NCBI GenBank assembly: GCA_029168955.1
Contig: JAPDOI010000143.1
Location: 992,001-1,056,000 of the forward strand
Direction of reading: 5' to 3'
Source of the DNA: Aplectana chamaeleonis
Lineage: Eukaryota; Nematoda; Chromadorea; Rhabditida; Cosmocercidae
DNA length: 64,000 nt
Shown here: positions 10,140 to 63,224 of the stretch, piece by piece
Position numbering within the stretch: position 1 is the stretch's first letter
Layout of the letters: each line of letters opens with the position of its first letter
The notes under the pieces: generated by a model
Seen by the model: only the letters and a program-made list of their open reading frames with translations
Database searches by the model: none
What the model was told of the DNA's origin: nothing
Translations under genes and position numbers: made by a program

Positions 10140-10760
10140 AGCCCTTTTTCCATTGGAAGAAGCGTGGAAAGTTGGTAGGTACATCCAATAATGGTCTTAA
10201 ATGTAGCATACACGCTCGTAAACGTGTTTGAGATAACTACGGAAATAGAATCGTAGGGCTCAGAACTCGACGTCTACGCATTTGGAAGCGTCAGAATTGA
10301 CCCACAATGCCGCCACACGAGTGAGAAGCTAACCCCGCCTCTGTATCTGGCCGCCCATGTATTTGCCGTTTTCATCCCAAACAGGGGTTCTGGGCTATTT
10401 CCACCGTCGTCGACGTTTGTGGGTAGTACAATGGATACAATAATCAAGCCATATACATCGACGACAAAGGGAGTGGCGCAGCACCCCTGTTTTGAAGGAG
10501 AACAGCGAATACAGGGGCGGACAGATACCTGGGCGGGGCCAACCTCTTACTCGTGTAGCGGCATTGTGGGTCGTTTTTGACGCTTCAAAATGCGTAGGCG
10601 TTGTGTTCTGAGCCATACCATTCTATTTACGCAGTTATCTGAAACTTGTTTACGAGCGTGTACGCTGCCTTCAATTGTATCCTGAGAGTCGAAAAGAATG
10701 GAGAAAACGACGTGATTCAGGTCGAAAAGGCGGCAGTGCCCTTTTTTTGACGGCATTAAC
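10140..10760. repeat. Foldback element, diverged inverted arms
   Basis: The left arm, about 10200-10400 (ACGCTCGTAAACGTGTTTGA, CCACAATGCCGCCACACGAG, CCAAACAGGGGTTCTG), is matched in reverse by about 10478-10665 (CTCGTGTAGCGGCATTGTGG, TTACGAGCGTGTACGCTGC). Similarity can be followed weakly outwards to about 10060 and 10800. No coding capacity; the exact ends are uncertain. It is probably a non-autonomous DNA element. Confidence 0.55.
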
Positions 10761-34935: not shown

Positions 34936-37022
34936 AGTGAAGCTATGAGAATTTCATCTAAGAGCTCATCTGTTACTTTACACCTCATTGTCCATAAAGT
35001 ACCCACCTCTACCGTCGGAAGGATTCATAAAGAATACGCGTAATGAAAGACGAACGATTCGTTTGAAGTAATTGTGTTCTTCTCATCGATTGAAAATAAA
35101 GCAATGCCCCAAGACGTCCTATCATTCATATGGAATGGAAACCACTAGGTGGAATAGCGATAATGTTGCAGCACAATCAACCTTCACCACTCTCTCTTGG
35201 ATGACATTCCTCATCACTGGAAGTCATACTTTTGCAGCCCATTGAATTTCTGTTAAATAAATAACGTGCTGAACTTGCTGAGTCGTATAATAACCAGCGT
35301 GATGTGATAAAGACATCAAAAATCTCTTTCCTAACCCTCTTCTTATCTATTTCCTTTAACACACATCCTTATACGTAGCTTATATTGCAACCGCTAGAGC
35401 GCGTCGAGATAAGACCTCGTAAGCCTAGAACAACATTTTCTATCCCTTTCATGCAAACGATGTCGATGGAATGACTGCGATCAAATTCGATAGCGAAGTT
35501 AAGTTTTGACCCCCCCCCCCAACAGCATAATCGGGAAATAATGCGCAATCGCTTGAATGTAGAGTTTGGAATTACATAGACTCTGTTTCATTCCAAGTGA
35601 ACTCAAGCGTTACTTTCATTGGGGCAACATACAGCCAAGTACCCTTTGAGCTGCCACAGCTAAAACCGGAAAATTCGCGTGAAATTTGTGAGTTCAGCGG
35701 CCTTACAACTATATATCACAATTAAAAAGGTGAGAACACCATCTCCCAATAATATAACGCACTAATAGCGTGTCAAGCTGTCGAACGCCCCGATGTCAGC
35801 CGGCGATATGTCGAAGGTATGTCCCGCACTTATGCCACATAAGGCGATCAACGGGATTTCCGTTACGGGAGACTACGCAACTGGCCGCGCATGAAGCCTG
35901 AACCGTTACAAAAAGGTAGCGTTCATACTTTTCTCCCCGCTCGACTATGCATATCAAACCAAATTGCTGACTGTCGGGTGCTTTCGCAGCAGCGAAGGGG
36001 GCCGACTTAGCTACCAAATTTGGTAACGCCTATTTTTCCGTTCCAAACAACTTTCCTGCTTTTGGAGCGCTGCATACAACTTCGTGGAAGAATGTGGGAC
36101 TCCAGGTTTCTACAGAAGGATTTCAGAGCAGTGGCTGGAGAGTGACAATCAACACGTGAAACGTTACGGATGGTGGGCTAGATTCCTTGATGGTTGATTA
36201 AATCCCGCTGGAGTAAACTGGGCTTCGGGCATGGTGCTACAGCAGCAGGGAAGAAGCACTTCGATATCGTCCTTGGTCACACCCATTTTCCCTTACCGGA
36301 ACGACTCCTCTCATTTTGAAAGTGTAGAACCTCGGTATGGTGCCCAAATTGCGCAGCGAGCCAGAATATTAGGCGTGGCCGAGAGAAATTGCTCTGCTTC
36401 AATACCACATCGGGCTCAACAAAAAAAAAGACATCGTGTAGTAATCAGTGAGACGGGCGTCGGAACACCACGCACATCCTCTCTTAAGTTAACACCGCTG
36501 GAAATATACTTTAGAAAATTTGGGCGCTTCTGGCTCGAAAATTACGACCTACAGGCCTCGGCATAGTGGGAAATCTGCGAGCGAGAAATGATGAGGGGTG
36601 GGGAGCGCTACGCAGTCTGACCGCGCACGCGACCGCACCGCATAGACTGCGGGGGGGGGGCGCTGAGTGTCTTGCACGTCGCGGAAATCGCAATTTCGCG
36701 GCGAAACTCGCGGCGAAATGCGCTAGACGATTGTGATTTTCAAGCGATTTTGCGAGTTGCTGCCAGTTTCCGCGCTCCATTGCTAATACTTGTGCTCTAT
36801 CACCATTCTCTATTCAAATGTTCACGATTTTGATTGTTTTCTCTCTCCCTCGTTCTCTTTTTTCTTATTTCTGGTGTAGTTTCAGGGTGCAGAACTATTT
36901 CGGGGGTTGGCACTCACAATTAAAATGGGAAATGGCTCATGCTGCTCTCAGAAATCGATCTAATTTCATGGACTTCTTAGGGAATTACGAGGGATATGGC
37001 TATCAAATATCTAACAACGAGA
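34936..37022 (+). repeat. Left arm of a large inverted repeat
   Basis: The 2.1-kb arm is the reverse complement, with scattered changes and small indels, of 39003-41723. Matching marks: GTAGTGAAGCTATGAGAATT at the outer end, TCATATGGAATGGAA with CCCAAGACGTCCTATCATTC, CCGATTATGC-type C-tract at 35510, CCGGCGATATGTC at 35800, AGCGCGGAAACTGGCAGCAA (reverse) at 36765, and GGCTATCAAATATCTAACAA at the inner end. Frames inside (for example the minus-strand MERGNWQQLAKSLENHNR, 36511-36780) are mirrored in the other arm and show no known family. Confidence 0.85.
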
Positions 37023-38955: not shown

Positions 38956-39002
38956 GTACCCCTAGAAATGAAAGGATTCATCCATGAAAATGAAAATTCT
39001 TT

Positions 39003-41723
39003 CGTTGTTAGATATTTGATAGCCATATTACTCGTAATTCCCTAAGAAGTCCATGATATTAGGTCGATTTCTGAGAGCAGCATCATCCATTTCCCATTTT
39101 ACTTGTGAGTGCCAACCGCCGAAATAGTTCTACACCCTCAAACTATACCAGAAATAATGAAAGAGAACAAGGGAGAGAGAAAACAGTCAAAATCGTGGAC
39201 ATTTGATTAGAGAATGGTGATAGAGCACAAGTATTAGCAATGGAGCGCGGAAACTGGCAGCAACTCGCAAAATCGCTTGAAAATCACAATCGTCTCGCGC
39301 ATTTCGCCGTGAGCTTCGCCGCGAAATTGCGATTTCCGCGACGGGCAAGACACTCTGCGCCCCCCGCAGTCTATGCGGTGCGGTCGCGTGCGCGGTCAGA
39401 CTGCGTAGCACTCCCCACCCTTCATCATTTCTCGCTCGCAGATTTCCCACTATGCCGAGGCCTATAGGTCGTAATTTTCCCGAGATGCGCCCAAATTTTC
39501 TAAAGTTTATTTTCAGCGGTGTTAACTTAAGAGAGGATGTGCGTGGTGTTCCGACGCCCGTCTCACTTAATACTACACGAAGCCTTTTTTGTGTTGAGCC
39601 CGATGTGGTATTGAAGCAGAGCAATTTCTCTCGGCCACGCCTAATATTCTGGCTCGCTGCGCAATTTGGGCACCATACCGAGGCTCTACACTTTCAAAAT
39701 GGGAGGAGTCGTTTCGGTATGGGAAAATGGGCGTGACCAAGGGCGATATCGAAGTGCTTCTTCCCTGCTGCTATAGCACCAAGCCCGAAGCCCAGTTTAC
39801 TCCATTGGGTTTTAATCAAATCCGTAACGTTTCACGTGTTGATTGTCACTCTCCAGCCACTGCTCTGAAATCCTTCTGTAGACCTGGAGTCCCACATTCT
39901 TCCACGAAGTTGTATGCAGCGCTCCAAAAGCAGGAAAGTTGTTTGGAACGGAAAAATAGGCGTTACCAAATTTGGTAGCTAAGTCGGCCCCCTTCCCTGC
40001 TGCGAAAGCACCCGACAGTCAGCAATTTGGTTTGATATGCATAGTCGAGCGGGGAGAAAAGTATGAACGCTACCTTTTTGTAACGGTTCAGGCTTCCCGC
40101 GCGGCCAGTTGCGTAGTCTCCCGTAACGGAAATCCCGTTGATCGCCTTATGTGGCATAAGTGCGGGACATACCTTTGACATATCGCCGGCTGACATCGGG
40201 GCGTTCGACAGCTTGACACGCTATTAGTGCGTTATATTATTGGGAGATGGTGTTCTCACCTTTTTAATTGTGATATATAGTTGTAAGGCCGCTGAACTCA
40301 CAAATATCACGCGAATTTTTCGGTTTCTTGCTGTGGCAGCTCAAAGCGTACTTGCTGAATGTTGTCCCAATGAAAGTAACGAAATTGTGGAGCCGGTTGT
40401 TGGTTTTCGCAGCAATGCTACGCGACCGTGTGCGTAGTATGAATGGTTTCTAAACATTGTCCGAGTAGTTTTCCTCAAATAGTCATCAATGTTCGTCACA
40501 TTAAAGGATCGAAAAAGTGTATCCCATTTTGTACATGGGTGGTGGGAAAAGTTTTCCACAACTGTCGTCTGTCTTGTGTGCTTAACACGATCATGATGAG
40601 ATATTTCCCGAATGTCTTCAATGTTTTCCTCTCTTTTTTGCAACATTCCATCGTATACATGCGAACAATCAACCTTTGCGCATCACCGCTCCAATGTACT
40701 TCTAGGCGCTTAGAGTTCAAACCTTGTCGAGCGGCGCATGGCGTGCCTCAGGCTCCTTTGACATTTATTTTGCCGTCCGAGCAGCGATATCCGACGTTGC
40801 ACGCGGGGCCCACCAGGCTTGCGGTAGAGCCGAGCAGTAATTTCGATCACCCCAACCCAGCAAGGGAGAGGTTTAGCCCCGACGCTAAACGCCGCGGTGC
40901 GTCGTCGGTCATCCAGCTTAGCATTGCGGCTCACAATGAGATCGCATCCCTTTTCTGTATCGTGTCGGGCGGTGACGATCGCTAGACTGCGAGCGAAAGG
41001 GGCTGCAGGGTACGGAGCATGGCGGAATGTATGTGATTTTAAACTCTACATTCAAGCCATTGCGTATTATTTTCCGATTATGCTGTTGGGCTGGGGTCAA
41101 AACTGAGCTTCGCTATCAAATTTGATCGAAGTCAATCCGTCTACATCGTTTGCATGAAAGGGATAGAAAATGTTATTCTAGGCTTACGAAGTCTTATCTC
41201 GACGCACTCTAGCGGTTGCAGTATAAGCTACGTATAAGGATGTGTGTTAAAGGAAATATATAAGAAGAGGATTAGGAAAGAGAATTTTGATGTCTTCATC
41301 ACATCACGCTGGTTATTATACGTCTCAGCAAGTTCAGCACGTTATTTATTTATTAAAAGTCCAATGGGCTGCAAAAGTGTGACCTCCAGCAACGAGAGAT
41401 GTCATCCAAGAGAGAGTGGTGAAGGTTGATCGAGCTGCAACAGTATCGCTATACCACACTTGAACACTGAAGTCCCAATGCTTGAAAGAGCGTTGATCTA
41501 GTGACTTCCATTCCATATGAATGATAGGACGTCTTGGGGCATTGCTTTATTCTCAATCGATGAGAAGAACATGATTACTTTAAACGAATCGTTCATCTTT
41601 CATTACGCCTATTCTTTATGGTTCCTTCCGGCGGTAGAGGTGGGTGCGTTTAGGAAAATGAGGTGTAAAGTAACAGATGAACCCATAGATGAAATTCTCA
41701 TAGCTTCAGTACACGAAATGCGT
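39003..41723 (-). repeat. Right arm of the large inverted repeat, with an extra 640 bp
   Basis: Reverse complement of 34936-37022. It is about 640 bp longer than the left arm because of an insertion at about 40383-41028. The plus-strand frame MERGNWQQLAKSLENHNR (39240) mirrors the left arm's minus-strand frame. Differences are scattered single bases and small indels, for example the C-tract of the left arm is GGGCTGGGG here. Confidence 0.85.
40383..41028. mobile_element. Segment present in only one arm of the inverted repeat
   Basis: The arms agree up to CAATGAAAGTAACG (40369-40382) and again from about GATTTTAAACTCTACATTCA (41034). The DNA between has no counterpart in the left arm. It holds frames on both strands (40443-40985 plus; 40496-40720 minus) without a known family. 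It is either an insertion into the right arm or a deletion from the left; no clear terminal repeat or target duplication was found. Confidence 0.6.
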
Positions 41724-43850: not shown

Positions 43851-45096
43851 GAGGGGTTCTGTCACAGGTTCAGAAACTCGGACACTAGCGTAGGGTTCGT
43901 CCACAGATCCATTGTCGTTAATGTAGTCGGTCTCTTCGAGAAACTGAACACGTGCGCAGTAGTATGCCCTCGACCACCGCAATCAGGACACCCGTCAGGT
44001 TCGCTGTTAACAATCCTATACAATTATGACATAAGCATTGGGAAGTGTCCACAGCGTAACGGTGCAAGAGTGCACCTGGCACGCCTGCCAAGTTCAATCT
44101 CGTTCTCGCTGACCTTCGGAGGTGCGACTCCCAGGATGGAGTTTATGGCAACTCTGCTGAAGTGTTCCTTCAAGGATTGTGTATGCTCCAACCGCAAGAG
44201 GCGGAGGCGTTCCTGTTGTGCTTCGGTCCATCTCTGCTCATCTACTTTCGACCGAGCATCGGCGAAAGGCTTTCTGATACATCTCTCTCTAACCGGGTTT
44301 AGTACTCGTCGCGATGGGTGATTCGGCTGCTTCATGATGTTAATATACATTTGTTGCGCCTGGAGTTAACAGTGGTCTCTGACTGGCAATATGCGAGCTT
44401 CGGTGTGTAAGTGCTCAATTGGAGAGCTTCTAGAACAGCCTGTTGCAATTCGCGCTGCAGCTTGGACCAGGATGTTCTGACACGATATGCTGCCAGACTT
44501 GTGCAGCATACTCCAGGTTGGGCTGTACGATGGCCTTGTACGTGGTCAGGATCGTTTCTTTACTGCACCCCAGGACGTTCCGCCGTGAGCACGTAGAAAG
44601 TCTTGTTTTCACTGCAGCTTGCTTCTGCTCAGTGTTCTTATGGAACCTCAACGAAGGATCCAACACGAGTCCGAGTAGCTTGGGGAATCGGGCGGCCGGC
44701 AATTGAGTTTCGTCCCATTTTACCATAGAATGGGCGCAGTGCTCCGCATTATCAGTGGAAAAGACAGTGACGGATGATTTGGAGGCAGAGACTGTGAATG
44801 TCGCGACCTCGGCACAGAACAGTAATATCATCCGCGTATGCAACGACCTTGATGTTTTGAGGGGGAACGGGCAGATCTTCTAGATATAAACTGAAAAGTG
44901 CAGGCGATAAAACTCCTCCTTAAGGGACACCAGCGGCGATGGGGATGCTATTGGAAACATGTCCCTGGAATAGCACATTTGCCCGACGACCTTTAATGAA
45001 GCCAGTTATCCACCGCTTCTGCCAGGGCTTAATGGTAGACTCTAACAGACTCTGTGATAGTAGGCCTAGATTGACAGTGTCAAATGCTTTTGTTAA
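43851..45096 (-). pseudogene. LINE, 3' half of ORF2 (RT motifs A-C to C-terminal zinc motif)
   Basis: Reading minus from 45090: motif A TKAFDTVNLGLL, then GVP-stop-GGVLSPALFSLY (motif B, Gln codon changed to TAA), motif C VVAYADDITVL (about 44830), and thumb-like GLVLDPSLRFHKNTEQ and TYKAIVQPNLEYAAQVW. The C-terminal region has RCTLAPLRCGHFPML, CPDCGGRGHTTAHVF and LTTMDLWTNP (about 43880-44090). The last block is the terminal Cys/His motif common in such LINEs. Frame changes near 44840 and 44400 plus the TAA make it inactive. Its 5' continuation lies 6.2 kb away at 51307, separated by the Penelope-like insertion. Confidence 0.85.
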
Positions 45097-45362
45097 TAAA
45101 AGGAAAAATATTATTGTTAAATTTTCGTACAGGGCTAAAGGTGTAAGTTGAATGTTAATGAAACAACACAGTTTCGTTCCTGCCCTTAGACTGTGTGCAA
45201 AATAACAGTTAGTGTTATGTGGAATATAAAATTTGTCTAGAGTGAAATAAATATAGAGCTACCCCGGAACTCATCAGTAAGGGGGTAGCTCTATAAAAGT
45301 AACAATGATAAATCTTAGTTCCAAAATGGTACACAATTTAGGTCTAGATTAGTTAATCACTT
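45095..45362 (-). repeat. Left pseudo-LTR of the Penelope-like element
   Basis: 268 bp, starting AATAAAAGGAAAAATATTAT and ending TTAGTTAATCACTT. It is nearly identical to 51032-51299; differences include ACTCATCAG versus ACTCTTCAG and small indels in a G-run. It contains a hairpin ATAGAGCTACCCC facing GGGGTAGCTCTAT. It lies 3' of the RT. Its ends are not the TG/CA of true LTRs. Confidence 0.9.
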
Positions 45363-45892
45363 CACACTGTTAGAGACAAAGAGAGGTTAAATATGAAACA
45401 AGGCTGAAGGTTAATGATGAAGTAGTTATCTATTAGTTAATAATGTTATAATGTTATACGAGAGCATGAGTACAGGTTAGTATGGTGAGACTAAACAATT
45501 TAATTAAAAAATTATAAAAGAAAAGAATACAGAGGCGAGGCAGGATCATATTAGTAGAATAGTGCAGTGCAGGAGAATATTAGTATAGTGCAGTGCAGGT
45601 GAATAGAGCAGGAAGATGTGTGAATTCCACAGTGGCAGGGAAATGATATTTTCGCAGGTTTGATGTAGCAGTCAATTTGGCTGCGTACATTGAGTGATTA
45701 GTCAACAGCCACACACCGCCTGTGACCACTGTAGCAAATCAAACGTGTTATAAAACGGATGGTCTGTAACAAACTTCCATCATGAGTCTTACGCCTAGTT
45801 TCTCAGCTGATCAAAAGAAAAGGTCGAGCTGTATAATTAACGAATTTAGAGTGAATTACAACGACTTAAGACAGAAATGGATGACCACAGAA
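45363..45892 (-). other. 3' untranslated region of the Penelope-like element
   Basis: AT-rich, no ORF. A two-copy direct repeat (TAGTGCAGTGCAGG, twice, about 45558-45605) is present. Confidence 0.5.
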
Positions 45893-48800
45893 CTATCTAT
45901 CTCCTTTTAATAAACTTTGTAACCATCTATTATCCCCTAATTTAAGATTATATTTGTAGAAAATAAAACTATTTTTATTTAAACATTTAAGCATGCAGTT
46001 ATAAATGAAGTTTATTGTATATCCATTTTTCTCCAGAATGGTTCCAAGTGATTTGATACGATCTCTGAAATCAAGAAAAAAGAACAAGTTCTAGCAATCC
46101 TCAGAGTTTCGGTGAAAATGGTGGCTTTCTCAACATTATCTGATAGGAACGAGTCCCTATGTGGTAGTCTTTTGACTTCGAAATTGAAATTGTCAGTTTT
46201 GTTGTATGTATTTTATCGTTAACTATCGCAATTTCCAAGTCCAAATAATTACATCTGTATTCGTCTGTGTGAGTAGGTTCAAGTGTCAGTATATTGTCAT
46301 AAATGTTTTGGAGTAAACGATTGATATCTTCACCCTTTCTATTATGGATTATTAAGATATCATCCATATATCGGAAACGAATTATGTTTTTTACATTGAC
46401 ATTACCAATTGAAAATTTATACTCGAAGTAAGACATCGTTAAGTCTGCTAATAAAGGACTAACATTACCTCCCTGCGGGACCCCTATGTTTTGTAAAAAG
46501 TTAAAACCGCTAAATTGGCAGAAACTATTTTTAAGTAAATAATCCGTGTAATAAATTATATCCTGTATTTGATAATATCTAGTTTTATTACTGTCGATTT
46601 TGTCCGTGTAGAAGGTTCTATTATAGCCATTGTACGCTAAATATTTTTTGCCCGAGTTTTTATAACAGATTTTCAAAATTTCTGTCAAGTTTCGTATTAT
46701 GATGTTGTGTGGAAGGTTGGTAAACATGTTAGTGAAATCCGCAGAAAATAATTTAGTATTGACCATACTGATGAAATGTAATGTTTTGCTAATATCTATG
46801 TTATCAATAGACCAATAGCCCAAGAAATTTTTGTTATTTGTTTTGATTGCATTCAAGTAGTTTTTAAAATGATTTCTTATAAAAAGGAACAATTGCTTGA
46901 GCTCTACTGCCAGTGGTTTAATGCTACTATTCTTAGCTCCTGTGATGAATCGAAATTTAACCGGTGACTTGTGTAATTTAGGTAAGCAGTAAATGTAGGG
47001 AATATCAGGATTATCTATACCGTGTCCAATATTAATATTACAAAAATTTATATGTCTATTCATGACCTCTACCCTACTTTCCAGGTCATAAACATTATAA
47101 GTGTTATTATGTATATTCAGATTATTATCTGTTATTAAATTTAGTTCTGATTGTATGATTGAAACGTATAATTTTTTACACACAAAACCATAGTTATTGC
47201 TTGCTTTGTCTAGCGGACATATGACTAGATTGTCCTGTAAATATCTTAAATAATTACTATTGTGTTGTATCTTATCTGAAGCTCTCAAGAAATTTCTATC
47301 CATTATGTGCTTTAATTTTTTTGATAAACACATTTCAATAATGTTAGCAATAGAATTTAGTTGTTGATCTGTGAGTTTATACCCTTTCTTATAAACTTTC
47401 AATATTTTATGTGATGTTTCTTTTTTCCACTGATGAATTAAGTCTTTATTAACCAACTTTGGGAGTCTGAATTTAGTACCTTTTTCCATGATGTTTTTTA
47501 ACGAAAAATCTTCGACTAGAGCTAAATTACCTGTAATTATATGACCATGATGATTATTCACAAAACCTTTCCAAGAACTTTTATCACATATGCATTGATT
47601 ATTGAGCGTTTCATTTAGAATATCCGAACTCAAACTTTTTAGAAATTTATTATAGTTGAAAATTTTCAAAGAGATAGGAGGTGGATAAGTATAAACAATT
47701 CTAGCCTTTACATAATCGTTATTCGCACTGATGATGTTTTTAATATCCGTCCTGTTAATAATTTTATTAATATTAATTCCATTGAAAAAATTTATGTAGG
47801 AAGTCAATGCATATAGTAATATTATCTTTTTTTGATTTGATTGCAAAATTCTCATTTTTATGGTGAAAACTACTGAGTATGCTGAGAATTATCTTTCTTT
47901 TATAAGCTGTAAAGTTTTCCATAAATAATTCGTCGTGACTTTTATTTAGAATGACAGTAATGAACTTTCTATTAAATGAACAAAAGTATTTATATATGTC
48001 GTACAAATCATCCGTACTACGAATTTTATTTATGAAATCTTCAACATTTTAAATTTTATTAATATAGTTTCTATTGTTACTTCTTTTCCTTTCTTTGACA
48101 ATTGACAAGCTATAAAAAGGATGATTATTTTTATAGTCAAGCGGGTTACTAATATCTGAGATGTTACCATAACCCTTAATATTATCATTAAGTCCGAATG
48201 GATAAGCTGTATTAAGAAGTTTTATCCAAAATAATTCTTTTTCGGGTAAAACATTATTGTCTTCATTACTTTCCAAATCATCCAGAATCTGTACTTCAAC
48301 TTCACATGTTAAGCAAGTTGTGAAGTGTTCATAAAGATAATTTTTAATATCTTGTTTCGAAATATGATAAAGATGCTCCTTAACCCTATCTTTCAGTCTT
48401 CGAGTTGTAAGACCGACATATTGCATTCCACATTGCTCACAGGATAAACAATATATTAACTTGTTAGAATTGCAATTCGTATCAGCTGTAGTAACAGTAT
48501 ATATTTTCAATTTGGTGGAATTACTCACCACAAATGAGTTTTTGTTATTAATCTTGCAAATAGGACAATAAGTCTTATCACAATCACTTGAAATATTTTC
48601 ATTACCAACATGTTGTAAAATATATGTACCATCAATCTTCTTTTTTTCAAAAACTTTGAATAATTATAATAATTATCATTATTATAAACCCGAACGATGC
48701 AAGACCTATAAGGCCGGTCTCTGCCACTATGAAGTTTTAGGAGGATAGTATTTAGCAGGGCTGCTGCAAGGTTACTGCAATCTTTGGAGTGGCTAATGTA

Positions 48801-49110
48801 TGGTAGAGATAAATAATGTAACGACGTGTAGCCGACTTTTAGGATGGCGACAAGGTAATCCCCCCATACAACCTTATCTTATAACCCCCTCACAAAAGCC
48901 CCCGTTATTTTTTTGAACAAGAGCACGGGAACCCTTGTCAAAGAATTGTAAACGAGTGGAAAAGGAGTATAAAGAACTAAAAGAAAACTTACCTACAGCA
49001 TCTAAATTCACTCGATGCTGACATATGTAATTAGGAGAATGTGACAGATTGATGGGTACAAAGCTAGAAGGCAATATTTTTTCAAAAATTATATGTTGGT
49101 AAAAAATCAA
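45893..49110 (-). pseudogene. Penelope-like polyprotein: GIY-YIG endonuclease, CxC linker, reverse transcriptase
   Basis: Exon 1 runs from ATG at 49110 to 48987 (MIFYQHIIFEKILPSSF) and ends at a strong GTAAGT donor. The intron reaches an AAAG acceptor at about 48656. Exon 2 has CPIC, then the endonuclease KLIYCLSCEQCGMQYVG and RRLKDRVKEH (GIY and YIG blocks with the CCHH-type cysteines and histidines). After TAA at 48049-48051 the same frame continues to about 47860, where a frame change leads into the RT frame (46101-47855, 584 codons). In that frame: CIC at residues 88-90 then HHGHIITGNL, PYIYCLPKLHKSPVKFRFI, motif A LFSADFTNMFTNLP, motif B IGVPQGGNVSPLLADL, motif C RYMDDILII (residues 495-503) and YLDLEIAI. 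A further frame change near 46170 continues the thumb (RIKSLGTILEKNGYTINFIY) to 45893. Catalytic residues are intact; one stop and two frameshifts make this copy probably inactive. Confidence 0.85.
48656..48986 (-). other. Predicted intron in the Penelope-like ORF
   Basis: A consensus donor (GATGCTGTAG then GTAAGTTTTC on the minus strand) and an AAAG acceptor just before VFEKKKIDGTYILQ give an in-phase join (one leftover base plus two). The acceptor is not a typical TTTCAG. Without the splice the endonuclease frame has a stop two codons upstream and no start codon. Retained introns are known in Penelope elements. Confidence 0.5.
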
Positions 49111-49349
49111 TAAATAAAGGTCCTGTAAGGAAATTTAATGCTGAGTATTATATTATTACGCAGCCAAATACTATGCGTAAAGGGTTAGGAAGTCATTCCA
49201 TTAGCGTATCTTACGTCTGTATCCTAGGTTACTTCAGTTACACTTATCATTTTACCCCATGATTAAAAAGGAATAAAACTGATAAATAAAAGATCTTTCT
49301 CAAAATCTTTCATATAGACTACTTATTAAAACATACTATCAGTGCCAAT
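49111..49349. promoter_or_regulatory. Candidate bidirectional promoter region
   Basis: 239 bp separate the divergent start codons of the endonuclease-RT gene (minus) and the cargo gene (plus). The stretch is AT-rich. No specific box can be claimed. Confidence 0.3.
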
Positions 49350-50630
49350 ATGGAAGCCCGTCGTTTGGAATTTCAAGAGATAGTAAATCGGAAAGTTCTG
49401 ATAGACTGGGTACGAATCCTTGGTCTACCAAATCCGCGTAAACATACATTCGACTCAATCTTGGACGATTTTGCTCACGACATATTGGAGTAAGTGTCTA
49501 TTTTTATTAGAAACGTGGTAATTAACTTAGCCATATAAGTTTAAATTAAACTATCATATCGGTTGAACGAAATTCTAACTATATTAAACTAGAAAATTTA
49601 ATAGGTATCCTCGAACTAAGCCCAATACTTTCACATGGACCAGCGGTGCTGGTTGGTTTGGAAATCACCGAGCCATACGTGTGAGTAGATGGATAGTATC
49701 TATGTAGATAAAAGCTGTTGAACCTTTTAAAAGTATTATTTAGGCTAAAATTTCCTATGACCTATGGAAACATTTCAATAAGAACGGAAGGAAGATATTA
49801 TTCAACTATAACAATAGGAATGGCACAAATATTCAACTTATCCGCGAGAAAACGCTACCGTTGCAAGATTCCGATCGACTTGGGTAAGTAGCCTGTATAA
49901 ATATATTTAATGTTTAAATACACTACATTTCAGATTATTCATACGCAAGACCATACGAACAGCATATGCAGAAATTGAGCGCGACCCTCCGGAGATAACA
50001 CTAAGCCGTGGGATGCTGAGGATAGGCGATGAAGTGGTACTGATGATTTTCATAAGTAATTGGCATTGTGTGCAGAATTTTTTTAATATTAAGTATATTA
50101 AAACCAAGCTTTCCAGCCGATGAAACCAGCAGTGGCTGCTGTCAGGCTGAATATGGATCTTGCAGGATGGAACGGATCGGAACTATGGATCGGAGATCTT
50201 AACCAAGCAGGAGCTAGAAGCAATTAGGGTTAGCAAATTGTAAAATGCTGTTTGCTGAATGTTAGTAAATCCACTAAAATTGCAGAAAAAGGAAATAGTC
50301 CGAGGATCACTGCAACTTCCTGACATCAACATCGCCTTAAATGCTGCAACCCCTGTACCCGAGCAAGAACATCCACATGAGGTATGAACGAAGAACATAA
50401 CAGGCTGCATACTAATTATTATTTAAATCAATATTATGTATAACCTATATTTTTAGGCCACACCTGTAGCAGCTGATGTATTGTTCGCGGAGCCCATAGT
50501 TGTTATACATCAGGATGAGCCCATGGAAGAAGTCCCTGAGGAGGAGAAGCTGGAACCACTGCATCTGCGTGGCCGTATAGTCGGTCGCGTTCAAGCCGGA
50601 ATTGAACATCTGCATTTGAACAAGGAATGA
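49350..50630 (+). CDS. Unidentified seven-exon gene carried inside the Penelope-like element
   Basis: I do not recognise the protein. Exons 49350-49489, 49605-49680, 49744-49883, 49934-50036, 50166-50228, 50286-50381 and 50457-50630 join in phase with GTAAGT, GTGAGT, GTAAGT, GTACTG, GTTAGC and GTATGA donors and -TAG or -CAG acceptors. The product is 263 residues, ATG to TGA, with no stop. The first half is basic and aromatic (GLPNPRKHTFDSILDDFAHD, TWTSGAGWFGNHRA, DLWKHFNKNGRKILFNYNN), like a DNA- or RNA-binding fold. The last exon is acidic then basic (EEVPEEEKLEPLHLRGRIVG). AATAAA follows at about 50696. The start codon is 239 bp from the divergent endonuclease ATG at 49110, suggesting a shared bidirectional promoter. 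The exon-4 donor GTACTG is the weakest; reading through gives a stop at 50119. It lies wholly between the pseudo-LTRs, antisense to the RT. Confidence 0.75.
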
Positions 50631-51031
50631 ATTAAGAAAGTCTACGATATATATAGTTTAACCCCGTTTTATAGAAGAAATGGATTTCAATTAAGAATAA
50701 AGTTTGAAATTAGATATAAAAATATTGAAAGAATAAAATTAATACTGAAGGAAGATGTCATCTGTTGATGACAGGCCCAGTTGGCCCAAAAATACAAGCC
50801 CCAATTGGGCCAGAGGAAAAGTTCCTCAACCTAATAAGTAGGAGAAAAGGTGAGAAAGGTAAGATATGATCAATAACTAAGAAAAATACGTTAGACAAAC
50901 GGTTAGAATTTTAAGTATGCAATGTTTAGGTAAAGCGAAGTAGGCAAATGTTATTAGGAATTTTTACAAAGAAAACTAACTTATGTGAGAATCGGGAAAA
51001 CCTCGAGTACCAAACATAAGTTTGCAGCATC

Positions 51032-51299
51032 AATAAAAGGAAAAATATTATTGTTAAATTTTCGTACAGGGCTAAAGGTGTAAGTTGAATGTTAATGAAA
51101 CAACACAGTTTCGTTCCTGCCCTTAGACTGTGTGCAAAATAACAGTTAGTGTTATGTGTAATATAAAATTTGTCTAGAGTGAAATAAATATAGAGCTACC
51201 CCGGAACTCTTCAGTAAGGAGGGTAGCTCTATAAAGTAGCAATGATAAATCTTAGTTCCAAAATGGTAAACAATTTAGGTCTAGATTAGTTAATCACTT
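51032..51299 (-). repeat. Right pseudo-LTR of the Penelope-like element
   Basis: 268 bp, direct repeat of 45095-45362. It is 5' of the endonuclease-RT gene, in the position of a promoter for the element. The flanking 51300-51306 (TAGTTAA) is not in the left copy. Confidence 0.9.
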
Positions 51300-51306
51300 T
51301 AGTTAA

Positions 51307-52445
51307 TAAGTCCAGGGCCACACCAACAGTACGTTGGGGTTTGATGGCATTGAAGCCGTCCAGAACATAGCTCACAAATTCCAACAAGGCCGTAGTGATG
51401 GAAGGTAATTTACGGAAACCATGTTGGTGCTGCTGTTGGCTGTTATGCTCGGCAAGCTCCTCCTCAACCAGTTTTTTTTTGGTGATGGGTGAGAGCAGAC
51501 TGATCGGCCGGTACCCTTTAGCCGTGGATGGTGAACTTCCCGGCTTCGGCAGTGGACTAACACGAGCCACTTTCCGATTTTGGGGTAAAGTACATGTACG
51601 AGAAGATGTTTTTATGACGTCAACGAGAAGTGCTCATCTCCTTTATCACAGTCGACTTGCTCAACTCCTTTATCATCTTCTCAAACTAGGCAGTTTCTTC
51701 AGGACTGCTGGGCTCAAACCGTCTGGCCCTATTGCCTTCGAATTGCTCATCTCCTTTATCACCTTCTCAAACTGTGCAGGCGTGACTGCTTCATCTACAT
51801 CCATGAGAGGCAATTTACAGAGTTCTCGCTCAGTTATTCAATTCTGCTCCTCTCTTTTGGTTTTAGTGATGAAAAATGCTTGCCAAGAGCATTTGCGGCC
51901 TCCTTCCCTGATTTGGAGACTCAACCTTTAAATTTAATCGTGGAGTTGTTGATGGAGGTGAACTTTCGGAAGATCGTTTTCAAAGCCTTCCAGGTTGCTG
52001 CTGCATCCTTTCTGTAGTTCATCGTTCATTTCTGTGTAGCTTCTTGTCGCCTTTCTCATCACTTTCCTACCATTCCGCTTTTCATGAGTGGATATCCTGT
52101 GAACTTTTTTATCTTGATTTCGTATACGAAAAAAAAACGGAGCCGAGTCCTAACTCGGATTATAAAAACGGCGTCGAAGATCATTCCGATGGTCCTCTCT
52201 GGGTTCCATTTGTTGCTCTGACACGATACTAAGTGGGCTGTATCTCTGCTTTAGCCTGCGATCATCAGCAGTGTTTCCTTTTTATTGAAATAGGCAATGG
52301 GTGTGACAGTAATTTCCTTGCAAGGTTTCCGAAGTCTTCGATAACCGGTAAATCCACTATCTCACCATTACTGATGAGAGCAGGACATAGCGTGGCAATG
52401 ATAACCGTGAAGTTTGTGGACTTTCCCGAGCCTGAGAGCATGTGA
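51307..52445 (-). pseudogene. LINE, 5' half of ORF2 (end of endonuclease to RT motif A)
   Basis: Reading minus from 52445: a probable endonuclease end (NFTVIIATLCPALISNG), a linker (NEMNDELQKG region), TPAQFEKVIKEMSNSKAIGP then DGLSPAVLKKLP (about 51710-51780), then VARVSPLPKPGSS and AKGYRPISLLSPITK, HQHGFRKLPSITTALLEFV, and VGVALDL at the break. The region 51640-51760 contains a short internal duplication. The broken codon continues at 45093. Together with 43851-45096 it forms one LINE of about 2.4 kb, 5' truncated. Several stops and frame changes are present. Confidence 0.75.
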
Positions 52446-52865
52446 GGTCATTAGGGCGTCGTGGAAAATGCATAGGGCTTCAGATGACGTCATTAGGGCG
52501 TTGTGGAAAGTGCAAAGGGCTTAAGATGACGTCACGAGGACGTCGTTGAAAATGCGTAGGGCTTCAGATGACGTCATAAGGACGTCGTTGGAAGCGTATA
52601 GGGGTTCAGATGACGTCACTAGGACTTTGTGGAAAGCGCATAGGTCTTCAGATGACGTCATCAGGGCGTAGTGAAAAGTGCATATGGCTTCAGATGACGT
52701 CACTAGAATGTCGTGGGAAGTGCACAGCGCTTCAGATGACGTCATCATGACGTCGTGGATATTACGTTGCGCTACAGATGATGTCATCAGAACGTCGTGG
52801 AAAGTGAGCAGCGCTTGATGTAGAGCGTGCGCTGTGTCGTAAAATGTGAGTAGCGCTTCATCTGC
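52446..52865. repeat. 42-bp tandem array with a TGACGTCA palindrome per unit
   Basis: About nine units of the type GTCATTAGGGCGTCGTGGAA, then AATGCATAGGGCTTCAGATGAC. Seven contain the perfect octamer TGACGTCA (the CRE/ATF site); the outer units are degenerate. Because 42 is a multiple of three, the minus strand stays open for 89 codons with a 14-residue repeat (MTSSEAL-type), but there is no reason to think it is translated. It abuts the end of the LINE. Confidence 0.85.
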
Positions 52866-56640: not shown

Positions 56641-57400
56641 AGAGCGTCTTTCGCGCTAGTACCTTGATGCTCCCGTGATCCGCGATAGTACCGTGTTCGT
56701 CTCCCCCTAGTCTCGCGATCCGCGTTCGTTCCGCGATAGTTACCCAATCGACTCATGCGTTGGCATTCTCGTTCTCGTATCGTGATGTTACCGCGATCGT
56801 TGAGAGGTTTACCGCGCTAGAACCGTGGTGTACTCGCGATCCGCGATGGCACCGTGATCATCTTCCCCCGGCCCCGCGTTCGCATGATGTGCAGATTTGT
56901 ATCGTCCATCACTAGATGAGGGATCGCCGCGACGCTGCTTGGCGGGAAAAATTGCGCGATCAATAGCCACTCTCCCTTCGTTTTCCCGCGCGCAATTTTT
57001 CCCGCCAAGCAGCGGGGCGGCGATCTCTCATCCCGTGATGGACGATAAAGCAGCGCGAATTACGGCGAGGGCAATACCTTATAGCTTCGTGTTGATCTGA
57101 TAGACAACCTTCGCTCGGGTGAAAATCAAGAGGGCCTGGATGCGGTACCATCAAGAGGCTGGCGGAATCTCGCGACCGTCCCGCGATAGTTCAAGGCTCG
57201 GTTCGTCGCGGGTCCGCGATGTAACACCCCGAATACATCAATGTGCACACGCGATTCTCTCTCAGGTTGAAACTGGTAGGATCTCGCAATCGTTCCGTTA
57301 CAGGCCCAGGCTCGACCCCTCGCGGTTTTGCTATGGAGCATCGTGGGAGCATCGATGAACGATCGCGGTACGCCTGGGACATGTTGATCGTTTTGTTAAA
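56641..57400. repeat. CG-rich degenerate repeat with words CGCGATCCGCGAT, carrying a MITE
   Basis: CGCGATCCGCGATAGTACCG, TCGCGATCCGCGTTCGTTCC and CTCGCGATCCGCGATGGCAC recur at 56677-56860, and related words (CTCGCGACCGTCCCGCGATA, CTCGCAATCGTTCCGTTACA) at 57169-57302. A family-C MITE interrupts it at 56901-57047. No gene. Confidence 0.5.
56901..57047. mobile_element. Family-C palindromic MITE, copy 1
   Basis: Begins ATCGTCCATCACTAGATGAG and ends CTCATCCCGTGATGGACGAT, flanked by TA. Arms of about 65 bp (GCTTGGCGGGAAAAATTGCG facing CGCAATTTTTCCCGCCAAGC) surround ATCAATAGCCACTCTCCCTT. TA flanks suggest a Tc1/mariner-type target. Confidence 0.85.
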
Positions 57401-57462
57401 CGCAAGATCGACGTAGCAGTCAGCCGCAACTCTCTCCGTCCACCCGCTAGGGGGCTAGGAAC

Positions 57463-58629
57463 CAGGGATGTGCGTAATAGAAATTTTGTAATTCGTTAGT
57501 CGTTCAACCGGAAAAAACCCTCGTAAGCCGTTAGTCGTTAATCGTTTGTCGTTAAAAATCTAGGCTTCAAAAACAAGCACAGCTGAGTCAGAAAAAAAAG
57601 CCCTTATGAATAGAAAAAAAGCAAGGCATGAAGGATGTATGTTTTCCGAAGCATTCATGGCCATCAAAGACTCATTCCTTGGTAGAAAACCTAGTTCAAA
57701 CTGCAAACCTAAATCTACATAATTAAAAATAACTCCTTAACCACTCGGACTTCGCCGCACGGAAACCTAATAGTCGGAAAAATGTGTGTTTATCAATTTT
57801 GTCATTTTTTCGGTAAGAAAGGGAACAATATGGGAAACCGACAAAGTCTAGAACTCAGCTTTTTCAGTGCAAAATTTGCCATTCTGCGCTATTTGATGCT
57901 ATCTGAGATCTACCCGAGGTGACAAAGCGTAGAGCTGCAGCAACTTTGCACTAATTGTTCTTTGCTCAGCTTCGCGAACCGAGCGCTCGCGTGGTTTAGA
58001 GCTTGTTCCCATAATGGGAAAGTCAAAAGAAATTAACAGTGCAAGAGTTACCTTTGAGAGGTCCCAGGACCATTTTATGGAAACCCATATCTCGAATTTA
58101 TGACTGAAAATCGAAGGACGGCACCCTTATAATCCAATTATCGGATACAGTTCCCGTTGTTGAACAGTTGTGGCCTGCAGGCACCGCTCCATATTATCAC
58201 CTCTGAATGTGCCCTCTGCGAAAATCTCCGCTGGAGCGGGTCAGTGTCGGAACCGGTTCAGTGAGCCTACCATAAAGTAGCCCGGCCGACACGAGATCGC
58301 ATGCAGGCTGCGCCTAACCTTGAGCAACGTTCGGTTGGGGTGTTTAAGTGGGGATTCCAGAGCTGCGAAGCAGTGCCAGTAGAAATAATAAATACTGAAG
58401 GCTATGGTTATACTGTACCATTCAACTAGAACAACCAACAGGGTATCAATCCTGGTGTGAGGCTCGGGTTGGAGAGCGATTTGAATGACTATTGGCTTTC
58501 TAACGAATTTTGGGATTGCTTACGAAAATATTTTCAATTTCGTCAGATGTTAGCCGTTAGTCGTGACACCCAAAAAGCCCGTTAGTCATTAAATTCGTTA
58601 GTCGTTAGTCGTAATTACGCACATCCCTG
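57463..58629. mobile_element. Non-autonomous hAT-type transposon, 1167 bp, 8-bp target duplication
   Basis: Begins CAGGGATGTGCGTAA and ends TTACGCACATCCCTG, flanked by CTAGGAAC on both sides (57455-57462 and 58630-58637). Subterminal arrays of CGTTAGTCGTTA occur at both ends. No transposase frame. The CAGGGATG terminus and subterminal short-repeat design match the element at 2550-3005. Confidence 0.9.
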
Positions 58630-58733
58630 CTAGGAACCCTCCTGTCTACCCATCTGGAAGCCGGGAGCCTTCGTGTGTACGTGCCGGGTACCCAGGAAGG
58701 TGCTTTTCATTTACACAGTCATTTTCCGATTAT

Positions 58734-58881
58734 ATCGTCAATCACTGTATGAGGGATCGCTGCGACGCTGCTTGGCGGGAAAAATTGCGCGGGGGGCAAC
58801 GAAGGGAGAGTGACTATTGATCAAACGATTTCGCGCCCAACTGCTGAGCGCGGCTATCTTCCTGTGAGGTACCTACGATAC
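58734..58881. mobile_element. Family-C MITE, copy 2, hybrid right half
   Basis: Left half is the usual family-C end (ATCGTCAATCACTGTATGAG). The right half is different: CGATTTCGCGCCCAACTGCT, then GAGCGCGGCTATCTTCCTGT, ending ACCTACGATA. The same hybrid form occurs at 61851 and 62339. Confidence 0.75.
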
Positions 58882-58898
58882 TCGAAAGTGATTGCACT

Positions 58899-59045
58899 AT
58901 CATCCATCACTGGATGAGGGATCGCCGCGACGCTGCTTGGCGGGAAAAATTGCGCGCGGGAAAACGAAGGGAGAGGGGCTATTGATCACGCAATTTTTCC
59001 CGCCAACCTGCTTCGGGGCGATCCCTCGTCCAGTGATGGACGATA
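58899..59045. mobile_element. Family-C palindromic MITE, copy 3
   Basis: TATCATCCATCACTGGATGA to CCAGTGATGGACGATA, standard symmetrical form, 18 bp after copy 2. Confidence 0.85.
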
Positions 59046-59566
59046 TCTTTCGGTGATGTAACCTTAAATATTGCAACCTGATTTTAATGATTATTTCGCT
59101 TTTCAATAGTTTAGAAATATTGATTGTTCTAATATCCAACTATCCGACATATCTAGCTAAACCTAATATCCGAAAAACTCAATAATGCGATTTTCAAAAC
59201 TAAGCCATTAATTAACTACTTTAATATTGAAATTTCGGTCTATCGCAGAAAGGGGGGGCAGGGCTGGGCACGCGTCCCGGTTAACCTTAGGGGGGTGCAT
59301 ATTAGACGTTGCAGAGAGGGCAAAGGGGGGGGGGGTGCCTTAACCGAACACCAAAAAAAGGAACGAACTCCAAGTTCTGTCGAATTTCAGGAGAAAAAAT
59401 AATACGCACTATTCTTCTGATTTGTCATATATTCTTCCCCGCTTTTTGAGTCGAACACTTAAAGAATTCAAATTGTTGATAGAGATGCAGGTTGTGTTCG
59501 CAATAGTTCATAGTAGCTGTCAAAGTTTGCTTTGATGAAGGAATACACCACTCTGTTTTCTTGTAA

Positions 59567-59707
59567 CGTCCATCACTGGATGAGGGATCGCCGCGACGCT
59601 GCTTGGCGGGAAAAATTGCGCGATCAATAGCCAATCTCCCTTCGTTTTCCCGCGCGCAATTTTCCCCAAGCAGCGTCGCGGCGATCCCTCATCCAGTGAT
59701 GGACGAT
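59567..59707. mobile_element. Family-C palindromic MITE, copy 4
   Basis: CGTCCATCACTGGATGAGGG to CCCTCATCCAGTGATGGACG, with a small deletion in the right arm (TTTTCCCCAAGCAGC). Confidence 0.85.
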
Positions 59708-59911
59708 AGCAAGTAAGGATTGATGTGATGTCATGTTTCTTTGGTGCAACGTTCATTGATTACGCGGGTGGCTACCGATTCGAGGCAAAGATACTAAGAC
59801 AGCGCCCAGAAAAACTATCATTCAAGTTCAAAAAAAGATTAGCGAACTGATGTATAATAGCCTAGGTCGCTCATTTTGAGCCAGTCAAAGCAAGGCTTAT
59901 CGGGCTTAATA

Positions 59912-60060
59912 TATCGTCCATCACTGGATGAGGGATTGCCGCGACGCTGGTTGGCGGGAAAAAATGCGCGCGGGAAAACGAAGGAAGAGCGGCTACTGAT
60001 CGCGCCATTTTTCCCGCCAAGCAGCGTCGCGGCGATCCCTCATCAAGTGATGGACGATAT
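59912..60060. mobile_element. Family-C palindromic MITE, copy 5
   Basis: TATCGTCCATCACTGGATGA to AAGTGATGGACGATA, symmetrical form with a few substitutions. Confidence 0.85.
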
Positions 60061-60289
60061 CAAAATCTTCTTATAACTGTTATACTTTGCCATGACCAAC
60101 CGCTACGCTGCTTACTTTGCCCGGACTCATCCGAGCAGGCTAGGATTCATTTCGACAGTTTGAAAGTACAGATAGCACAGTCAGCATCACAACTAGTCTA
60201 CAGATTTTAATTCATGAGAATGTGACTCATGAAGAGAGCCAACTGTAAAAATTGAAGACTGCAAGTTACTATGAAAGAAGCGAATGACC

Positions 60290-61230
60290 GTGTCGTCCTT
60301 ATTGAGAAGTACCCTGTGCATAAAAACCCGAGTTTTATCCACCTTGAATGCCGCGATCCCTTGGAATTCGGCTAACCGTGCGACACGGTGTTTGTCCGCA
60401 GCTACACAACGCGCACTGGAGTGGACGCGCACGCAGTATTAATTAAAAATGTATTTTATTACAGAACGGGGCGGAGAAAATGATTGAAACTGGAGTAAAT
60501 GGAAGGAGGCACAAATAGGATTCTTTCAATGTATCCAGTATAGAAATTTAATGTAAACAAACTATGTTGGAGCGGAGTGAATTTTTTGGATGTGATAAGG
60601 TTCATTCAAACGAACCTAGTTGATTAAAAACACCCATAAACATGAGAACTAAGAGCATTGAGAGAAAAAGGAGGATCGGGCAAACATTTTAATACCAATA
60701 GGTTTGATATTCAATGTGATTTAAAGACCTTGAAACTCGTCCCGGTTTTGTCCCGGTTTTGTCCCGGTTTTCGGGGTAAAACCGGGACGAGATTTAAGGT
60801 CTTTAAATCACTTAAAAAACCGGTCCCATTGATGCTAGAATAATTTCCAGATTCTCCTCTTTCTCACAATACCCTTTGCTCTCAGTTTAATGCTAGTTTT
60901 GATCAACTAGGTTCGTTTGAATGAACCTTATCACGGCTAAATATTGATACCCGCTCTAACTTTGTTAATTTAGTTTAAATTTCTAAAATGGGTACATCCA
61001 GAATAGAATACCTTTACCATCTTCCATTTTCATCGGTTTAAATCCTTTTCTCCTCCCCGTTCTGTATTAAAATACACTTTTTATCAATATTGTGTGCGCG
61101 TCCATTCCCGTGTGTGCTGTGTAGCTGCGTACAAACACCGTATCGCACGGCGAGCCGATTTTTTAAGGGATCGCGGCATTCTAGGAGGGTAAAACTCGGG
61201 TTTTCTACTCCCTACGAATCACATGAATCA
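60290..61230. repeat. Long imperfect palindrome centred near 60765
   Basis: Arms of about 450 bp: ATCCACCTTGAATGCCGCGA (left) facing TCGCGGCATTCTAGGAGGGT (right), TACAGAACGGGGCGGAG facing CTCCCCGTTCTGTATTA, GATAAGGTTCATTCAAACGA facing TCGTTTGAATGAACCTTATC. The centre has CCGGTTTTGTCCCGGTTTTG tandem units and their inverse AAAACCGGGACGAG. It is a foldback element without coding capacity. Confidence 0.8.
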
Positions 61231-61850
61231 TAACATTGTTCCACAACACAAAATAGTTCTGATTTCCACATCAGAACAATCAAACACAGATCAACTAATC
61301 CTTCATAGGTTTATGAAAACATTCGACAGAGAACAATAATTATCGCAATAGTAGTAGTTCTGTTGTTGGTAATTGTTCAATTGTTTTGTATTGAAAAATG
61401 TTTTATCTTTTGTCATAACTTACCGTCTCACTAACAAATTTTCCTCATGGGGCTGTTTTGAAGTTCAGAAATTACACTACCCTTTTTGTTGCCATTTTCG
61501 GATTTTTCTCTATACAGTGCTTTTTTATATTCTTGTTTATCAAAATGAGGAAGTCAAGATCATAGCTGTCCAACTATTCGGAAAACAGCTGATTTCGATT
61601 TCCTATAAGGGGGTGCCTAAAAATTACCGAGCTAAGGGGGTGCATATTAAGAATCATCATGCCGGGACGTGTGCCCAGCCCTGGGGGGCTCTATTGTGCG
61701 ATTTACTAGGCGCGCGCCATTTTCCAGTGACGTCGCGTTTTCCCTTTGTATCCCTACATACGACCCTGCATGTCTTTGCTCCTCGTCTTGTCCCTTCTCA
61801 TTTTCCTCCTCGAGCACTCTACAAGGCGCAGTATCTTTACTCTCACGATA

Positions 61851-61999
61851 TATCGTTGAGGTCTCACAGAGAGATAGCCGCACTCAGCAGTTGGGCGCGA
61901 AATCTTTCGATCAATGGCCACTTTCCCTTCGTTTTCCCGCGCGCAGTTTTTCCCGCCAAGCAGCGTCGCGGCGATCCCTCATCCAGTGATTGACGATAT
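61851..61999. mobile_element. Family-C MITE, copy 6, hybrid form reversed
   Basis: TATCGTTGAGGTCTCACAGA, then TCAGCAGTTGGGCGCGAAAT on the left; standard family-C end (GCGGCGATCCCTCATCCAGT) on the right. It is the reverse orientation of copies 2 and 7. Confidence 0.8.
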
Positions 62000-62338
62000 G
62001 TGACGCGGACCCATCGCAGTGGAACCATACACTTCGAAATGTGCCGAATCTTAGCATTCTTATTTCAAAAATTCGCTTTTGTCTATGAGTGACACGTCGT
62101 ACCTTGGTTTGCTGTCACCCTCTCACTTGGTGTGAAATTTTTCAATATCACTCGGCACGATTTCGTGCGAACGCAGTGTGATGAGGTGCAAGACCCGATA
62201 GGGCAGTGACCGCGCACAACGTGAGTGGGTGAAGGCTGTAACAGTCTTGGCTCACAAGAAGAAATTTGTGAATTTAGTGATGGAATCGTAGCGACCAATA
62301 CCCAGTACAACATTTCATATTACTCGGCAACATCAGCA
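62000..62338. other. No gene seen
   Basis: Spacer between MITE copies 6 and 7 without recognisable content. Confidence 0.3.
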
Positions 62339-62487
62339 TATCGTCCATCACTGGATGAGGGATCGCCGCGACGCTGCTTGGCGGGAAAAATAGCGCGCGG
62401 GAAAACAAAAGGAGAGTGGCTATTGATCGAACGATTTCGCGCCCAACTGCTGAGCGCGGCTATCTCTGTGTGAGACACCAACGATAC
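62339..62487. mobile_element. Family-C MITE, copy 7, hybrid form
   Basis: Left end TATCGTCCATCACTGGATGA; right half CGATTTCGCGCCCAACTGCT, GTGTGAGACACCAACGATA. Confidence 0.8.
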
Positions 62488-62850
62488 TTGGATGCCTATT
62501 AAAGATCTCTCTTGTTCTCTGTATTGCCTCTACCAATCTTGCTTCCACTGTCACGTCTTCTAGGTCTTTTATACAAGTCTGCTTCTTCTTGGTGAACAAA
62601 TACTGATTTCATGTTCAGTGAAAATGTGTGCCAAATGATATGTTTTTTTGGATTCCAATAAAAATTGGGCTGAGTAGTTGTCCAAATCGGTAGTGTAATT
62701 CCCTCCGGATTGATAATATAGTCGTAAATGACCGGTTTCGAAATATTGCGTACCTTTCAGGTGGCGTTCGGGCGGTATTTAAGAAATCATCTGGAAAAAC
62801 CAGGAAGGCACCGTAGTAACTTCACGTCATACTGTATAGCTTTTGCTGTT

Positions 62851-62998
62851 ATCGTCCATCACTGTATGAGGGATCGCCGCGACGGTGCTTGGCGGGAAAA
62901 ATTGCGCGATCAATAGCCACTCTCCCTTCGTTTTTCCGCGCGCAGTTTTTCCCGCCATGCAGCGTTGCGGCGATCCCTCATCCAGTGATGGACGATAT
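62851..62998. mobile_element. Family-C palindromic MITE, copy 8
   Basis: ATCGTCCATCACTGTATGAG to CTCATCCAGTGATGGACGAT, symmetrical form. Confidence 0.85.
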
Positions 62999-63224
62999 GC
63001 TGTGTTTGCTCCGCTGGATCGTGTTGTAGGGATTTGTGAAACGTGTATTATAATGTAAAATTGTGCCTATCTCGATAAAAATTTTACTGAATTCTGATAC
63101 CCTTTTATGCAAGTAGCCCAAATGTTTAAATCACCTTGGTTTCTATTGGGTATTGGGTGTGATTTATAGGGGTTCTATGCTATTATTTGATTATCTTAAT
63201 TCTAGATTGCAACACGCGGTATTA

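Follow-up and report, generated by a model that had tools for sequence, protein, structure and literature searches.

The 64-kb window analysed here (positions 992,001 to 1,056,000 of contig JAPDOI010000143.1 of the nematode Aplectana chamaeleonis; all coordinates below are those of the window) contains a 6.2-kb unit flanked by direct repeats (45095-45362 and 51032-51299, 97.8% identical across 269 columns). Inside the repeats lie a broken gene for a GIY-YIG endonuclease (EN) and reverse transcriptase (RT) on the minus strand, and an intron-split gene, referred to below as the cargo, on the plus strand. The unit occupies one insertion site inside an older long interspersed nuclear element (LINE). 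It is likely to be a broken Penelope-like element (PLE) of the Naiad type, and the chances appear about even that it is a two-gene element in which an ORF1-like gene is placed antisense to EN-RT. A wider proposal is made more tentatively, namely that PLEs of this EN-bearing Naiad type have two genes, one of them an ORF1 of RNA recognition motif (RRM) type, and that in strongyle nematodes this ORF1 has been flipped to become a multi-exon gene, divergent and antisense, whose introns stay in place. The observations on which this is built are the repeats, an 8-bp target-site duplication, the restored RT domain of the interrupted LINE, the gene order and the cargo family; RNA binding by the cargo protein is inferred.

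Borders, insertion site and EN-RT gene

The borders of the unit and the interrupted host sequence are as follows.
45092-45099, no strand: target-site duplication, left copy, GTTAATAA, an 8-mer at the outer repeat end
45095-45362, minus strand: pseudo-long terminal repeat (pLTR), 3' end of the element in the RT sense (direct repeat, 97.8% over 269 columns)
51032-51299, minus strand: pLTR, 5' end of the element in the RT sense (direct repeat, 97.8% over 269 columns)
51302-51309, no strand: target-site duplication, right copy, GTTAATAA, an 8-mer at the outer repeat end
44430-45091, minus strand: downstream half of the interrupted host LINE RT, outside the element (RVT_1 E 8e-27 with the flanks joined)
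51310-51633, minus strand: upstream half of the interrupted host LINE RT, outside the element (RVT_1 E 0.0016 alone, 8e-27 joined)

The 268-bp direct repeats had been taken as the borders of the element in an earlier, sequence-only reading of this DNA, and this is upheld by the 8-bp duplication at their outer ends. Five of the eight bases of the left copy also belong to the repeat block 45095-45362, and the plus strand of the window has five copies of the 8-mer in all. When the flanks are joined without the 6.2-kb unit, an open LINE RT frame runs across the site, older stops lying farther out, and the RVT_1 match reaches E 8e-27 (94.7 bits) compared with 1.6e-3 and 7.4e-19 for the separate halves. 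Since joining the flanks restores a single LINE RT domain, the 6.2 kb occupies one insertion site. The unit is known here from one assembled copy, and a second copy with RT and cargo together was not seen in the window. A single assembled copy is what an assembly chimera might leave, but as the target-site duplication and the restored host domain span the whole unit, this explanation is very improbable.

The EN-RT gene is recognised in three parts.
48049-48663, minus strand: GIY-YIG endonuclease part, ending at an in-frame stop (PF01541 E 2.4e-4, just below the cut-off)
46101-47888, minus strand: reverse transcriptase part, a 595-amino-acid open stretch with a CxC pair, GVPQGG and YMDD (PF00078, RVT_1, E 2.8e-8, above the cut-off)
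45944-46206, minus strand: C-terminal pieces of RT, lying in two further frames (tblastn of P0019)

The predicted endonuclease-CxC-RT gene on the minus strand, with EN N-terminal to RT, was thus found again inside the pLTR-bounded unit with its target-site duplication. Its damage was slightly underestimated before: the single in-frame stop (48049-48051) stands, and the alignment to P0019 by tblastn gives three frame changes rather than two. Relatives of the RT number 32 among 7580 candidates at E <= 1e-10, the best two being 48% and 46% identical. Both cysteines of the CxC pair (C99 and C101) are invariant in all 12 aligned rows, and a GIY-YIG part N-terminal to RT is also present in P0022 and in the related loci L002 and L003 described below. 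One copy of the RT was recognised in the window. EN before RT is the order of Naiad and Chlamys elements, and a CxC pair is a feature of Naiads, which were reportedly treated by Craig et al. in 2021. The order, the CxC pair, the pLTRs and the target-site duplication make a broken Naiad-type PLE the likely identity of the element. Compared with Naiad elements, which share the EN-first order, the CxC pair and the pLTRs, the unit differs by its second, antisense, intron-bearing gene.

The pLTRs each contain a strong hairpin, at 45244-45303 in the left copy and at 51189-51233 in the right, the latter with perfect 13-nt arms (51189-51201 and 51221-51233). Neither hairpin region gave an Rfam family above its cut-off, and hammerhead ribozymes, a feature reported for PLEs, were not found in the pLTRs by Rfam at the gathering cut-off or at E <= 5. 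Separately, in an annotated Pristionchus pacificus bbs-1 model (P0048) a stretch of about 195 residues matches the RT of this element at 36%, which may reflect the fusion of a PLE into the gene model.

The antisense gene and its nematode family

The cargo and its signals are listed here; introns in this model are 50-115 nt long.
48968-48973, plus strand: TATAAA in the interval between the EN-RT and cargo genes, a candidate signal (motif)
49350-49489, plus strand: exon 1 (GT-AG chain, homologues)
49605-49680, plus strand: exon 2 (GT-AG chain, homologues)
49744-49883, plus strand: exon 3 (GT-AG chain, homologues)
49934-50036, plus strand: exon 4 (donor at 50037 gives the best homologue fit; the chain given earlier may end at 50033)
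50117-50228, plus strand: exon 5, conserved, with a net +1 frame shift (homologue alignment)
50286-50381, plus strand: exon 6 (GT-AG chain, homologues)
50457-50630, plus strand: exon 7 up to the stop codon (GT-AG chain; C-terminus with little homologue support)
50696-50701, plus strand: AATAAA downstream of the stop (motif)

An antisense gene with introns, lying at 49350-50630 within the pLTRs, had been proposed and is recovered, its introns having GT-AG borders. The further claim of an intact spliced gene of 263 codons holds in part: such a chain exists (262 amino acids and a stop), but homologues place exon 5 at 50117-50228, where it is frame-shifted. In the conserved frame this exon reads PMKPAVAAVRLNMDLAGWNGSEL and then runs into a stop, its 112 nt giving a net +1. 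The exon 5 proposed earlier (50166-50228) begins at an internal AG and loses conserved residues; the open frame depends on this later acceptor, which may nevertheless be used. The cargo has a single lesion in 0.84 kb and the RT gene four in 2.6 kb, so that the rate per length is similar, and the supposed contrast between a clean cargo and a decayed RT therefore fails.

Three homologues of the cargo were retrieved by a first search and 18 by a profile search, from six species: Heligmosomoides polygyrus (3), Nippostrongylus brasiliensis (3), Ancylostoma duodenale (4), A. caninum (2), Cylicocyclus nassatus (5) and Strongylus vulgaris (1), all of them strongyle nematodes. They align to exons 1-4 and to the first part of exon 5. 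Four homologue models miss stretches, which begin at the exon borders 1/2, 3/4 and 4/5 in P0003, P0014 and P0017, and within one residue of border 2/3 in P0018. The gaps end at border 5/6 in P0017, within 1-2 residues of 4/5 in P0014, and inside exon 3 in P0003 and P0018. We read these gaps as skipped exons of a gene structure common to the family, in which exon 5 spans 50117-50228. Judged by its homologues, the cargo is a real gene belonging to a many-copy nematode family. That it might be a single-copy orthologous gene, a possibility the sequence-only reading had set against itself, does not agree with the homologue counts, which are two to five in every species of the six but S. vulgaris, where there is one.

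Two close pairs of family members lie on different contigs: P0004 and P0018 of A. duodenale agree at 209 of 215 aligned residues, and P0008 and P0017 of N. brasiliensis at 192 of 216. Species are intermixed in the family tree, in which 5 of 16 forks are well supported; by path the cargo of the window is nearest to P0001, and it falls inside no strongly supported set. A mobile, intron-keeping gene would be expected to look like this, although the data do not name the vehicle. The same pairs, as signs of movement or copying of the gene by an unseen vehicle, are consistent with an ordinary one-ORF Naiad having inserted first, the gene entering later on some DNA segment or as part of a further mobile element. 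Such a later entry is improbable, since no terminal inverted repeat, flanking duplication or foreign boundary was found beyond exact matches of <= 10 nt.

Predicted likeness to LINE-1 ORF1p, and second genes of related elements

The best PDB match of the predicted fold of the cargo family, of moderate quality, is human LINE-1 ORF1p. On this model the cargo protein is predicted to resemble the RNA-binding ORF1p and would probably help to package element RNA. What the two would have in common is the predicted RRM-like fold, and several results do not favour a closer link. For the C-terminal domain, 2ldy aligned over 155 residues but at 14 Å, and the part predicted by itself had no ORF1p row among its PDB matches, so that this half is unconfirmed. 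No long trimerising N-terminal coiled coil was seen, the P0002 model having only a helix at 3-18 before the RRM-like part. The cargo matches no Pfam family, none of the scanned homologues is of the Transposase_22 kind, and a profile comparison of the cargo and ORF1p families stayed at control level. Sequence, coiled coil and isolated C-terminal half thus do not support a family link to ORF1p, from which the cargo differs also in being intron-split and antisense.

Prokaryote genome contigs scanned with the RT alignment gave 82 pattern stretches and five PLE loci, L001-L005, in records of metagenome-assembled genomes (MAGs) where they are likely to be eukaryotic contamination. Three of the five (L001, L002 and L003) have an upstream second gene in sense orientation, with predicted introns in one. 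In L001 this is a predicted six-exon gene (five introns; 225 amino acids) upstream of EN-RT, whose protein was not recognised by Pfam or PDB. The upstream ORFs of L002 and L003 have, by eye, an ORF1p-like layout. The L1 trimerisation domain (PF17489) is weakly matched by that of L002 at E 0.046, below the cut-off, as is the coiled coil of ORF1p at E 0.32; that of L003, cut at the contig end, gave no match. Identity between the two is 28% across 137 residues, and 44% between their RTs, with E-values referring to a set of eight sequences. L004 starts within RT, and L005 holds a short RT fragment, no second gene of ORF1 kind being recognised among its listed ORFs. L001 has a tandem-like repeat period of 5,217 bp. 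As an aside, L001, L002 and L003 are Naiad-type units in records named as bacterial MAGs, and the first two are apparently arranged head to tail, in arrays of about 5.2-5.3 kb.

Against the L001 protein the cargo profile aligned in the expected register with a score of 22.0, compared with <= 19.9 in 60 shuffles; in a second test 6 of 250 shuffles of this protein did as well. For L002, L003 and human ORF1p, the shuffles gave the higher score in 223, 227 and 184 of 250 cases, respectively. The suggested link between the cargo and the upstream genes rests more on place and predicted fold than on sequence. Third-position GC is higher in the second gene than in RT both in L001 (0.47 vs 0.31) and in the window (0.42 in cargo exons 1-4 vs 0.24-0.31), and as the contrast is found in L001 too, it is no mark of a foreign gene in the window.

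The sense orientation in these relatives raises the question whether the gene in the window is only apparently antisense, the unit being two partial sense ORF1-RT copies lying head to head. Inverted arrangements of this sort with palindromic junctions are described as common in PLEs (PMC3846280). The unit, however, has no detectable inverted pLTR copy inside it, no inverted pair longer than 17 nt at 48600-49400 and no recognisable RT remnant between cargo and right pLTR, the window having the one RT copy, and so a head-to-head origin is doubtful.

The proposed two-gene element, known systems and the rest of the window

The preferred reading is that two divergent genes, EN-RT and cargo, probably travelled together in this element as a single unit; the cargo would be the counterpart, turned round, of the upstream sense genes of related elements. 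A promoter between the two genes would fire in both directions. In the minus-strand RNA of the element the cargo would lie in antisense, so its introns would stay unspliced and be copied into DNA. Translation of the spliced plus-strand mRNA would yield a basic-tailed protein of RRM type to coat the RNA of the element. The EN-RT protein would nick an AT-rich target and copy this RNA. The earlier suggestion that antisense placement preserves the introns is possible, but such placement is not needed and probably not the sole way, because the five predicted introns of L001 lie in a sense gene.

A precedent is found in Adineta vaga, where a non-ribosomal peptide synthetase (NRPS) gene with introns is reported between Penelope pLTRs, with an 8-bp target-site duplication; the report suggests the same for a leucine-rich repeat (LRR) gene, and proposes an antisense template to keep introns (PMC3846280). 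The pLTRs, the 8-bp duplication and the introns retained between pLTRs are shared with the unit described here. Because of this case, the main rival is that a nematode host gene family was likewise caught between two pLTRs and spread, introns included, by PLE machinery, with no role in transposition; the multi-copy nature of the cargo family is as in captured host families. This is unlikely, though less so than the other alternatives. The Adineta genes moved in trans, without adjoining element sequence, whereas the unit joins gene and EN-RT; moreover, the predicted fold matches a retroelement protein, and in related elements this position is likewise occupied by a second gene.

Other PLEs with accessory ORFs differ from the unit. 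Terminons/Athena are EN-deficient, telomeric and up to 40 kb, with accessory ORFs for exonucleases, esterases and others (PMC6431247, PMC5408684); the GIY-YIG part and the insertion in a LINE do not fit a Terminon. The accessory ORF1 of some PLEs is an SGNH esterase (PMC3905857), compared with the predicted RRM-type protein of the cargo. EN-containing PLEs are described as single-ORF elements in a review (PMC6431247). In the PLE literature covered (Naiad/Chlamys, permuted, Terminon, nematode, ORF1, coiled coil or RRM, antisense ORFs; Craig et al. 2021 lies outside this scope) no EN-containing PLE was seen to have an intron-bearing gene in antisense or an ORF1 of RRM type. If the two-gene reading is true, an ORF1-like ribonucleoprotein gene would make PLEs akin to LINEs in having a separate RNA-packaging protein, and a nameless multi-copy nematode family now annotated as host genes would be explained. 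The antisense spliced gene would also be a natural test of intron retention in PLEs, a question raised in PMC3846280.

Elsewhere in the window, a long inverted repeat pair (35608-37020 and 39002-40381, 93.6% identical) is spaced about 2 kb apart, and near-palindromes at 60323-61204 (75%), 10197-10674 (78%) and 6634-6722 (97%, each against its own reverse complement) are perhaps fold-back elements. Several copies of a repeat of about 150 bp occur in both orientations at 56896-63000, and a minisatellite with a 42-bp unit (8.7 copies) lies at 52443-52806. Reading frames on the minus strand at 26174-27778 resemble, by eye, a LINE with a start of the apurinic/apyrimidinic (AP)-endonuclease type.
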